In this document: piece after piece, positions 1 to 4,630 of the stretch
How the letters are laid out: the number at the start of each line of letters is the position of its first letter
Numbering within the stretch: the first letter of the stretch is position 1
Assembly (NCBI GenBank): GCA_012798435.1
Contig: JAAZNF010000086.1
Span: 1 to 64,000 of the forward strand
DNA length: 64,000 bases
Direction of reading: 5' to 3'
DNA from: Myxococcales bacterium
GTDB taxonomy: Bacteria; Myxococcota; B64-G9
Notes under the pieces: model-generated
Databases searched by the model: none
What the model saw: only the letters and a program-made list of their open reading frames with translations
Told to the model about the DNA's origin: nothing
Translations under genes and position numbers: made by a program

Positions 1-2
1 CT

Positions 3-138
3 CTCAACTGCGTGGCCAACGCGCGCCTGCTCGCCGAGGGCCCCTTCCGGCGGGTGTGGATCCAGCCCGCGGCCGGGGACGCCGGCGGAGCCCTGGGGGC
101 GGCCCTGCTGGTGTGGCACCAGCTCCTCGAGCGGCCGC
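3..138 (+). pseudogene. Carbamoyltransferase, inverted downstream fragment
   Basis: Read on the plus strand, positions 3-140 encode a run that includes LNCVANARLL, FRRVWIQPAAGDAGGALGAALL and VWHQLLERPR. This is the conserved segment of the C-terminal half of the core domain of NodU-type carbamoyltransferases. It faces the N-terminal half at 139-622, which is on the minus strand. Roughly 260 residues that normally separate these two parts are missing from the window and would lie to the left of position 1. The junction falls in an 8-bp palindrome (131-138). I read this as one gene with an inverted internal segment, or as a chimeric sequence join; it cannot make a normal protein as written. Confidence 0.75.
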
Positions 139-622
139 GCCCGATGCTGGCGGTGGCCCACTCGCCCACCCCGTCCACGGTGAGCACGGCGGCCTCCGCG
201 AACGGCGAGGGGAAGAAGGCCGAGGCGGCGTGCGACTGGTGGTGCGAGCAGAACAGGATGCGGCGCCGCAGCCGGCCGCCGAGGCCCCGCCGGATCTCCC
301 GGCGCAGGCGCAGCTTGTGCCGCAGCCACTGCGGCAGCGCGGCGAAGAACGAGCCCAGGCCCCGTGGGGCGAAGGCCAGGTAGGTCTCGAGCAGGCGATC
401 GAATTTTTGGAGCGGCTTGTCGTAGAAGGCCACCCAGTCGAGGTCCTCAACGCGCAGGCCGGCATGCTCCAGGCAGAAGGCCGCCGCCCGGCGCGGAAAA
501 GAGGGGTCGTGCTTTTGCCGGCTGAAGCGCTCTTCCTGGGCGGCGGCGGCGATGCGGCCCTCCAGCAGCAGGGCGGCGGCGCTGTCGTGGTAGAACGCCG
601 ATAGTCCCAGGATGGAGCTCAT
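139..622 (-). CDS. Carbamoyltransferase (NodU/CmcH family), N-terminal part only
   Basis: The minus strand from ATG 622 encodes about 160 residues matching the N-terminus of O-carbamoyltransferases of the NodU/CmcH/TobZ family. These enzymes move a carbamoyl group from carbamoyl phosphate onto a hydroxyl of an antibiotic or glycolipid. Visible hallmarks are ILGLSAFYHDSAAALL at the start, AQEERFSRQKHD, the HHQSHAASAF motif carrying metal/substrate-binding histidines, and TVDGVGEWATAS. The start lies 6 nt after the helicase stop. The family match ends at about position 139; the minus-strand frame then runs on without a stop but is no longer family-like. The continuation of the protein is found instead on the opposite strand at positions 3-138, so the gene is rearranged here. 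A full protein would be roughly 550-600 residues. Confidence 0.85.
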
Positions 623-628
623 CAGGTC

Positions 629-1996
629 CTAGCGCCGCCGGCGGCGGCGCGGCGGGCCGCGGCGGGGCTCGGGGCTCGGGCGGTTCTCTACGCTGCGCTG
701 CTCGTCGTGCACGCGCTCCGCGTTGCGCTTGAGCAAGAAGGCCACGATGGCCTCGGCCCGCGGATGCCCCAGGATGACGCGGGCCTCCTCCGTGAAGCCG
801 TCGCAGATGGCGGCCTCGGCGGAGCTGAGCAAGGACTCGATATGCGCCATGATCCTCTCCTTGACCATCTCGGCGGGTGGGGGGAAGGTGAGCCGGGTGA
901 ACGTCACCGAGAAACGCCGCTCGATCTCCGCGCGGGTGCGCAGGTCGCGGGCGGTGAGCAGGCTGACCGCCACGCCCTTGCGCCCCACCCGGCCCGTCCG
1001 CCCCACCCGGTGCAGGTACACCGCCGGATCCTCGGGCAGGCTGTAGTTGATGACGTGGGACAGATGGGAGATGTCGATGCCCCGGGCGGCGATGTCGGTG
1101 GCCACCAGGAAGCGCAGCCTCCCCTCGCGGATGCCCTGCATCACCCGCTCGCGCTCCCGCTGGGCCAGGGCCCCCGAGAGCATCTCGGCGCTGTAGCCCT
1201 CGCGGGCCATGACGGTGGCCACCAGCGAGGCGTCGGTGCGCGTGTTGACGAACACGATGGCCGAGCTGGGCCGGTGCGCCGCCAGGGCGTACAAGAGGTA
1301 GTGGGTGCGGGGCAGGTCGTCGCCGATCTCGTAGCACAGGTTGTCGATCTCCTCCACCGACAGGCCGTCGGTGGAGAGGTCCACCCGCACGATGTCCGAG
1401 GCGAAGGAGGAGATCAGGCTCTCGGTGGCGGGATCGAGCGAGGCGGACAATATCACGAGCTGGCGCAGGGCGCTGCAGGCGGAGAGCAGCCGCGTCACGT
1501 CCTCGATGAACCCCATCGACAGCATCTCGTCGGCCTCGTCCAGCACCGCCCGGGTGACGCCGCCCAGCGACAGCACGCGGCGCTCCAGCAGATCCAGCAG
1601 GCGGCCGGGCGTCCCCACCACGATGCGGGCGCCCTCGCGCAGCGCGCGGGCCTGTTCGGACAGGTTGGCGCCGCCCCAGGCCCCGGCCACTCGCAGGCCG
1701 CGGTGGCGCCCGATGGCCGTCAGATCGCGCGCCACCTGGGCGGCCAGCTCGCGCGTGGGGGCCAGCACCAGCAGATCGACGCCGCGGCCGGCCGGATCCA
1801 TGGCCTGCAGCAGCGGGATACCGAAGGCGGCGGTCTTGCCGGTGCCGGTGCGGGAGCGGACCGAGAGCGAGCGCCCATCGAGGAGCGGCCGCAGGCAGGT
1901 GCGCTGGACCGGGAGCAACTCCCGGTAGCCGAGATCGCGCAGGCCCTGCACGATGGCGGGGTCGAGATTCTCCGCCTCAAGCGGGATCGCTTCCAT
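629..1996 (-). CDS. DEAD-box ATP-dependent RNA helicase
   Basis: A 455-residue RNA helicase expected to unwind structured RNA in the cytoplasm (ribosome assembly, cold adaptation or mRNA decay). Motifs appear in order: Q-motif region LLPVQ near 28-31, Walker A TGTGKT 50-55, PTRELA 80-85, GTPGR 128-132, DEAD 153-156, motif III as SAS (usually SAT) 184-186, ATDIAARGID near 299-308, and HRVGRTGR 329-336. About 100 extra C-terminal residues end in an Arg/Pro-rich basic tail that could grip RNA. AAAGGAG sits 4 nt before the ATG. The start overlaps the end of the upstream ABC-F gene by 20 nt, so the two are probably co-transcribed and both act on ribosomes or RNA. Which DEAD-box subfamily (DeaD, RhlE and so on) is not clear. 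Confidence 0.93.
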   Translation of the reverse strand: MEAIPLEAENLDPAIVQGLRDLGYRELLPVQRTCLRPLLDGRSLSVRSRTGTGKTAAFGIPLLQAMDPAGRGVDLLVLAPTRELAAQVARDLTAIGRHRGLRVAGAWGGANLSEQARALREGARIVVGTPGRLLDLLERRVLSLGGVTRAVLDEADEMLSMGFIEDVTRLLSACSALRQLVILSASLDPATESLISSFASDIVRVDLSTDGLSVEEIDNLCYEIGDDLPRTHYLLYALAAHRPSSAIVFVNTRTDASLVATVMAREGYSAEMLSGALAQRERERVMQGIREGRLRFLVATDIAARGIDISHLSHVINYSLPEDPAVYLHRVGRTGRVGRKGVAVSLLTARDLRTRAEIERRFSVTFTRLTFPPPAEMVKERIMAHIESLLSSAEAAICDGFTEEARVILGHPRAEAIVAFLLKRNAERVHDEQRSVENRPSPEPRRGPPRRRRRR

Positions 1997-3905
1997 CGTT
2001 CTCCTTTACGATCGAGGCCAGCTGTTCCCACTCCACCAGCAGGGTCTCGTGCTCGTCCTCGGCCGCCTTCTTCTCCCGCTGAAGCTTCTCCAGGCCGGCC
2101 CAGTCGCGGGCCATGGACGGATCGGACATGCGCCGCACCAGCTCCTCGGTCTTCTGCTCTCGCTCGTGGATGGCGGCCTCCAGCTCTCGCAGGCGCCGGG
2201 CGCGCCCTTCCCGCTCGCGGTGCAGGCGCTTGCGTTGCTCGAACTCCTCCCGCCGCCGCCGGCGTGCTCGCTCCTCGGCGGGGTCCTCCTCGTCCTCGTC
2301 CTCGGCGGCGCCCAGGATGCGGCCGGCCTGGCGCAGCTCGCTGTAGGTGCCGAGCTCGCTGACCAGGGCGCGGTCCTCGATGGCCAGGATGCGCCGGGCC
2401 ACGCGATCGAGGAAGTAGCGGTCATGGCTGACCACGATCACGGTCCCGGGGAAGGCCAGCAGCGCCTCCTCCAGTACCTCGCGCGAGGGGATGTCCAGGT
2501 GGTTGGTGGGCTCGTCGAGCAGGAGCACGTTGTGGCGCTCCATGACCAGCAGCAGCAGCGACAGCCGGCTGCGCTCCCCGCCGGAGAAGGTCTCGACCCG
2601 GCGGAACACGTCGTCTCCGTGGAACAGGAAGCGCCCGGCCAGGTCGCGCAGCGCCTGCTCGGAGAGCTCGGGGCGGCGCTGGGCCAGCTCCTCCAGCACG
2701 GTGCGCCCCAGGTTGAGGTTGGAGAGCATCTGGTCGTAGTACCCGATCAGCGCGCGAAAGCCGGTCTTCACCTCGCCCTTCTCGGGGGTTTGCTTCTGCG
2801 CCAGCACCTCGAGCAGGGTGGTCTTGCCGCAGCCGTTGGGGCCGATGATGCCCACGCGCTCGCCGCGCTCGATGGTGAAGCTGGCCCGGTCCAGCAAGAG
2901 CTGGCTGCCCGGCCGGAGACAGAGCTCGCGCGCGGTGAACACCATCCGTCCGCTGGGCTCCACCTCGGGAAAGGTGAGCCGGAAGACATCCGGCTCGGCC
3001 GCCGGCGCCTCGATCCGCTCCAGGCGCTGCAGACGGTTCTCGCGGCTCTTGGCCTGGCGCGATTTCTGGTTGGCGTGGGTGCGGCGGATGAAGTCCTGAT
3101 CGCGCTCGATCTGCTCCTGTTGCTGCCGCGCCTCCTTCTCCTGCCGCGACCGGCGCTCGCTGCGCACCCGCTGGAAGTGAGCGTAGTCCCCCGGCAGAAC
3201 GAACAGGCGCTGATCCGGCTCGATGGCGGCCACCGAGGTGGCGAAGGCGTCCAGGAAGGCGCGGTCATGGGTGACCACCAGGGCGCCGCCCGGGAAGGCC
3301 TGCAGGTACTCCTCGAGGAACTCGGTGGAGCGGATGTCCAGGTGGTTGGTCGGCTCGTCCAGAAGCAGCAGATCCGCCTCGAGCAGCAGGATGCGGGCCA
3401 GCATGAGGCGGCTCTGCTCCCCGCCCGAGAGGACCGAGACCGGCTGCTCGAAGCTCCCGGCGCGAAAGCCCACGTGGTGCAGGGCCAGGGTGGCGCGCCG
3501 CTCAAGGTCGTCCCCGCCGGCGTGCTGGTACTCCTCCTGGAGCTGGCCCAGGTGCGCAAGCAGCCGCGGATCGCCGCGGGCGGCCTCCTCGGAGAGTTCC
3601 CCGATGCGCCGTCGCAGCTCCATCAGATCGGCCCGGGCCGCCATGACCGTGTTCAGCACGGTGTCCGAGCCCTGGAGCGCGATGACCTGCGGAAGATAGC
3701 CGATGCGCAGCCCACGCTCGATGGCGATCGAGCCGCGATCGGGCTGGATCTCTCCGGTGATGAGCTTGAGCAGAGAGGTCTTGCCGGCGCCGTTGCGGCC
3801 GGTGAGCCCGATGCGCTCTCCCCGACGGATCTGCAACGAGATGTCCCGGAGCACCGTCTCCCCGGAGAAGGATAGATGCACGTTGTCGAAGTTGACCAGT
3901 GCCAT
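1977..3905 (-). CDS. ABC-F family ATPase (translation factor type)
   Basis: A 642-residue protein with two soluble ABC domains and no membrane segment, the layout of ABC-F proteins (Uup, EttA, YheS) that bind the ribosomal E site. Domain 1 has Walker A GRNGAGKT 36-43, signature LSGGEQ 159-164 and DEPTNHLD 183-190. Domain 2 has Walker A GPNGCGKT 355-362, signature FSGGER 440-445 and a second DEPTNHLD near 464-471. The linker at about 245-300 is highly charged and helical, as expected for the ribosome-probing interdomain arm. The C-terminal 100 residues are an acidic then basic coiled coil as in Uup, suggesting structured-nucleic-acid or rRNA contact. The stop overlaps the helicase start. It could equally be called Uup-like or ABCF3-like; the subfamily is not settled. 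Confidence 0.93.
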   Translation of the reverse strand: MALVNFDNVHLSFSGETVLRDISLQIRRGERIGLTGRNGAGKTSLLKLITGEIQPDRGSIAIERGLRIGYLPQVIALQGSDTVLNTVMAARADLMELRRRIGELSEEAARGDPRLLAHLGQLQEEYQHAGGDDLERRATLALHHVGFRAGSFEQPVSVLSGGEQSRLMLARILLLEADLLLLDEPTNHLDIRSTEFLEEYLQAFPGGALVVTHDRAFLDAFATSVAAIEPDQRLFVLPGDYAHFQRVRSERRSRQEKEARQQQEQIERDQDFIRRTHANQKSRQAKSRENRLQRLERIEAPAAEPDVFRLTFPEVEPSGRMVFTARELCLRPGSQLLLDRASFTIERGERVGIIGPNGCGKTTLLEVLAQKQTPEKGEVKTGFRALIGYYDQMLSNLNLGRTVLEELAQRRPELSEQALRDLAGRFLFHGDDVFRRVETFSGGERSRLSLLLLVMERHNVLLLDEPTNHLDIPSREVLEEALLAFPGTVIVVSHDRYFLDRVARRILAIEDRALVSELGTYSELRQAGRILGAAEDEDEEDPAEERARRRRREEFEQRKRLHREREGRARRLRELEAAIHEREQKTEELVRRMSDPSMARDWAGLEKLQREKKAAEDEHETLLVEWEQLASIVKENDGSDPA

Positions 3906-3943: not shown

Positions 3944-4630
3944 TCAGCGGGGCTTCTTGGCCGGCTTCTTGGGAGGGGCCGGTTTCTCCTCAGGCGCCTT
4001 GGCAGGTTCAGGCGCCTTGGCCGGCTCGGCGTCGGCGGGCTTGGCGTCCGCCGGCTCGGCGTCGGCGGGCTTGGCGTCCGCCGGCTTGGCGTCGGCGGGC
4101 TTGGCGTCCGCCGGCTTGGCGTCCGGCTCGGGAGTGGCGGGCTGGGCGGCGGCGCCTCCAGCGCCCGGTTCGGGGTTTGCGGCGGGCTCTGTCCCCGGCT
4201 GGGCGGCGGGAGCGTCCTTGGTCATGGAAGCCTCCTTGGCCTGCCAGGCGTAGCGCAGGGCCAGGAAGGCGACCACCCCCAGAATGATGGCCCCCACGAT
4301 GAAGATCACCACCCTTTTCACCCGAGAGGCGGAGTTGACCTGGGCGGCCGCCATGAAGAACTGGGTCTGTCCGGGTGCGTTGGGATCGGGCTCCGCGCGA
4401 ACGGCGGGCGGCGCGGGCGGCTGGCTGCGCAACGCCTCGCGGGCCGTCATCGGCTTGGGCGCCGCCGCCGCCACGGGCGCCGCAGGTCTCGCTGGCTGTT
4501 GCGGCTGGGTGGCCAGCCCCTCTGCGGGAGCGGGGGGCGGTGGAGCGGAGGCCGAAAGGGGGTTGCCGCATCCGGCGCAGAACTTGGCGCCGTCGGGGTT
4601 CTTGGTGCCGCAAGAAGAGCAGAAGGCCAT
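3944..4630 (-). CDS. Zinc-ribbon, single-pass membrane protein with Ala-Lys-Pro repeat tail
   Basis: A 228-residue protein of unknown role. It begins with a double CxxC zinc ribbon (FCSSCG...FCAGCG, residues 4-21), then a Pro/Ala-rich linker, one hydrophobic segment at about 107-127 (VVIFIVGAIILGVVAFLAL), and a long tail made of KPADA/EPADA pentapeptides ending in Lys/Pro. The zinc ribbon would be cytoplasmic and the tail periplasmic. GAGGAG is placed 6 nt before the ATG. The tail is encoded by a 30-bp tandem DNA repeat listed separately, so its length may vary between strains. Zinc-ribbon plus one membrane helix plus low-complexity tail is common in myxobacteria-like genomes, but I cannot assign a function. 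Confidence 0.8.
   Translation of the reverse strand: MAFCSSCGTKNPDGAKFCAGCGNPLSASAPPPPAPAEGLATQPQQPARPAAPVAAAAPKPMTAREALRSQPPAPPAVRAEPDPNAPGQTQFFMAAAQVNSASRVKRVVIFIVGAIILGVVAFLALRYAWQAKEASMTKDAPAAQPGTEPAANPEPGAGGAAAQPATPEPDAKPADAKPADAKPADAKPADAEPADAKPADAEPAKAPEPAKAPEEKPAPPKKPAKKPR
4021..4123. repeat. 30-bp tandem repeat inside the zinc-ribbon protein gene
   Basis: Positions 4021-4050 and 4051-4080 are identical, 4081-4110 differs by one base, and a partial fourth copy follows to about 4123. Each 30-bp unit holds two near-identical 15-bp halves, so the protein repeats every five residues (A/D-K/E-P-A-D) while the DNA repeats every ten because alanine codons alternate between GCC and GCG. Confidence 0.95.

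Follow-up and report, generated by a model that had tools for sequence, protein, structure and literature searches.

Invertible DNA switches, in which a serine or tyrosine recombinase turns a segment around, are a close biological counterpart of a gene that appears folded back on itself. A clean inversion creates two new breakpoints, and a mixture of the two states leaves contigs broken at both sites. Technical counterparts come from short-read sequencing and assembly. The assemblers MEGAHIT and metaSPAdes leave overlaps of the maximal k-mer length at contig ends, and a MEGAHIT k-mer list topping at 141 is in use (PMC10914622). Inverted repeats or palindromes that anneal while a library is being prepared are documented to produce chimeric reads (PMC10908179), and local assembly errors are a recognized problem in metagenome assemblies (PMC7111523). 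A strictly worded literature search found no paper on foldback artefacts of whole-genome amplification.

Here we analyze a carbamoyltransferase gene of the NodU type whose two parts face each other at the very beginning of a contig. The best explanation of window positions 1-141, to which we assign a probability of about 0.93, is that a de Bruijn contig assembled from short reads ends here in its k-mer overlap (k = 141), and that this overlap was reached through a false foldback join. The genome itself would carry one ordinary, probably intact gene of this type.

Two Probable Parts of One Gene at a Contig End

The draft genome comprises 129 contigs with a total of 5.05 Mb, and the window, that is, the whole 64-kb stretch of DNA analyzed, is contig C11 from its first base. 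An open reading frame on the minus strand, with its ATG at 622, matches positions 2-167 of the Carbam_trans_N profile PF02543 (E = 9e-37) and aligns with residues 1 to approximately 163-166 of an intact 576-aa relative, L012, at 67% identity. Judging by the profile match, the alignment with L012, and the conservation of Gly163, positions 134-622 hold residues 1-163 and are the authentic 5' end of the gene. Read from base 3 of the plus strand, the contig matches profile positions 312-346 of the same family (E = 6e-11) and residues 308-353 of L012 (74% identity). Both elements of the sequence-only reading, an N-terminal part on the minus strand and a later segment of the same kind of protein on the plus strand, are thus confirmed; the first runs from 622 to about 134 and the second covers 3-141. 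Upstream of the N-terminal piece and on the same strand lies a DEAD-box RNA helicase gene (629-1996, minus strand; Pfam DEAD, E = 1e-38; Helicase_C, E = 1e-28), which is unaffected. Farther along the window (3944-4630, minus strand) is a frame for a small protein that begins like a zinc ribbon, probably contains a membrane segment, and has a tail of repeated AKPAD.

The palindrome GCGGCCGC, previously pointed out as the meeting place of the two pieces, is indeed present at 131-138. It is contained in a longer inverted match of 11 nt, GGCGCGGCCGC (131-141), and since both sides fit all of these positions, the join is not placeable within this 11-nt stretch. The palindrome alone is not rare, as the 64-kb window has 27 copies of GCGGCCGC and 468 eight-bp palindromes; two parts of one gene facing each other across it, however, are not a matter of chance. 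The longest inverted repeat found between the available gene pieces is an exact match of 11 nt, and GGCGCGGCCGC ties for this length between the N-terminal and C-terminal pieces, which would put the join about where annealing of one strand to the other is best. Codon-shuffled versions of the pieces have on average 0.7 inverted matches of at least 11 nt. Of 90 relatives, 89 conserve Gly163, and residue 164 is most often Arg with CGC as its commonest codon, so that the native sequence of the N-terminal piece plausibly extends across all 11 nt. A search for long inverted repeats around the gene in window positions 1-3000 found only short GC-rich matches.

The Second Contig and the Missing Middle

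Window positions 1-141 (plus strand, residues 308-353) are identical, with no mismatch, to the reverse complement of the last 141 bases of contig C123 (19816-19956 of 19956), and this extreme end, on the other strand, is their only second occurrence. When both contigs are read in the same direction, they agree over exactly 141 bases and diverge from base 142: C123 goes on through an ordinary co-linear C-terminus to a stop codon, and C11 turns back into the N-terminus. Starting with the shared bases, C123 keeps the reading frame from residue 308 up to its stop codon, with 59% identity to L012 across residues 308-571, and contains a Carbam_trans_C match (PF16861, E = 3.5e-72); beyond the stop lie a small protein of membrane type and the first part of a DUF5989-like protein. 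The C-terminal site is therefore present on C123 in the normal, un-inverted junction.

The two ends of the PF02543 domain thus lie on C11 and C123 and PF16861 lies on C123, and both domains would be joined in one continuous gene by a middle (residues 164-307, about 430 bp) which a search with the protein of a relative found in no contig of this genome. The matches returned by that search were a distant paralogue on C28, the two known C-terminal pieces, and one match at chance level. A contig holding only the middle would be well under 1 kb, and since the shortest contig among those sampled has 2156 bp, a length filter would presumably have removed it.

Exact shared ends of this length are not confined to the carbamoyltransferase gene. 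Both ends of 61 of the 129 contigs (C1-C60 and C123) were compared; with C17 and C39 left out as N, this gave 118 usable ends, among which six pairs share exactly 141 nt, C11/C123 and five others. We infer that a de Bruijn assembler working on short reads, with a maximal k of 141, left the 141-nt overlap at the contig ends. Branching pairs of this kind also occur at apparent true repeats, as at the ends of C31 and C56, so the overlap alone is no proof of an artefact. The segment shared by these two ends (L200 and L225) reads like the C-terminus of EF-Tu, so that two near-identical tuf genes are probably present. The end of C37 and the start of C52 (L206 and L158) likewise have 141 nt in common, with high similarity beyond them, in coding sequence resembling a LuxR-type helix-turn-helix protein, which suggests a repeated regulator family. 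The other end of C123 (L010 start) shares 141 nt with the end of C21 (L190) in serial orientation; this suggests that C21 precedes C123, and the likely order on the plus strand is C21, C123, a gap of about 430 bp, and C11.

The C31/C56 pair gives some color to a real inverted duplication, in which the 141-nt overlap would be a true repeat, with a second copy of residues 308-353 lying beside a broken N-terminal fragment. We consider this the least likely of the readings, with very little probability. Against it, the pieces on C11 and C123 complement each other as the N-terminal and C-terminal parts of one gene of the NodU type. The only other N-terminal match besides the C11 piece is the C28 paralogue (70140-71196; L011), a second, distant carbamoyltransferase with 44% identity over the N-terminal part and an open frame of 658 codons.

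Inversion versus a Probable False Join

The join has the geometry of one breakpoint of an inversion, and the 11-nt match could act as a short inverted repeat. It is accordingly conceivable that the middle of the gene (residues 164 to approximately 353) is truly inverted in part of the population at the 11-nt inverted matches, perhaps as a reversible switch at the GCGGCCGC sites that would reversibly disrupt the enzyme. We regard this as very improbable. The C-terminal breakpoint is un-inverted on C123, and the second inverted breakpoint is on no contig. If both states were mixed, C11 should be broken at the N-terminal breakpoint as well; instead, C11 runs on through it. With the C-terminal site normal, the N-terminal site seen only in the folded form, and the rest of the C-terminus past that site occurring once, on C123, the picture is not that of a clean inversion or of a clean mixture, whereas a single false join fits, provided that the true path from the N-terminus to the middle was lost.

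A recombinase gene would be expected next to a switch, and the two families searched, PF00239 (serine) and PF00589 (tyrosine), have no domain on C11 or C123; their matches are on C90 for the former and on C71, C16, and C94 for the latter. Nor are the sites conserved: GCGGCCGC was found at the first of them (site a) in one of 90 relatives and at the second (site b) in none of the 90. Among the 91 relatives whose gene was inspected, none has it inverted and the order is co-linear in all; the gene is intact in one frame in 88, cut by a contig end in two, and frameshifted in one. One locus, L026, was considered as a broken locus and rejected, being co-linear with a frameshift or small gap. The chromosomal inversion, possibly a switch, which the sequence-only reading had offered as one of its two explanations, is thus not supported, given the normal junction on C123 and the lack of a second breakpoint, of a long inverted repeat, of a nearby member of either recombinase family, and of an inverted relative. 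Its other explanation, that amplification or assembly produced a foldback join, is supported by the 141-nt overlap, the co-linear end of C123, the single breakpoint, and the 11-nt microhomology at the join.

The false join may have arisen as follows. The true order would be the C-terminal part on C123, the gap, and the N-terminal part on C11, all coding on the minus strand. When the library was prepared or the reads were assembled, the N-terminal piece ending in GGCGCGGCCGC would have become connected with the C-terminal piece approximately 560 bp downstream on its opposite strand, where these 11 nt recur as their reverse complement. By one possible route, a single strand would anneal at the inverted match and be copied, yielding a chimeric read. 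By another, the assembler could have made a low-k misjoin after a coverage dropout in the middle of the gene; local-extension steps of assemblers use very short k-mers. On either route the join would be absent from the chromosome, and the contig would then stop, after exactly 141 nt, at the branch with C123. Since the k-mer common to both contigs connects oppositely oriented ends of one gene, one of its two paths has to be false. C11 passes through the join without branching; thus the false path is assumed to have replaced the true N-to-middle path in the final graph, for which the true path must have been pruned or have lost coverage locally.

The case has a practical side. When a gene turns back on itself no more than k bases from the end of a draft contig, other contig ends should be compared before an inversion is called, and gene calls at this end of C11 would yield a truncated, chimeric protein.

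Comparison with Known Systems

With invertible DNA switches the locus has in common a segment reversed beside a short inverted match. In contrast to them, the carbamoyltransferase join comes with no second breakpoint, no PF00239 or PF00589 domain on C11 or C123, no conserved sites, and no inverted relatives. There is no evidence for a genetic switch at this gene, and the apparent foldback is almost certainly an assembly error.

The locus also resembles the chimeric reads of the PDSM model (PMC10908179), in which a strand runs into a nearby reverse complement at a short inverted match. That model concerns human libraries, whereas here the partners are about 560 bp apart and the join is known from assembled contigs. 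As for the maximal-k overlaps of the de Bruijn assemblers MEGAHIT and metaSPAdes (PMC10914622), the C11/C123 pair departs from an ordinary overlap, as its k-mer connects to opposite ends of a single gene on opposite strands; it resembles such overlaps in its exact length of 141 nt, its place at two contig ends, and its recurrence elsewhere in the same genome.
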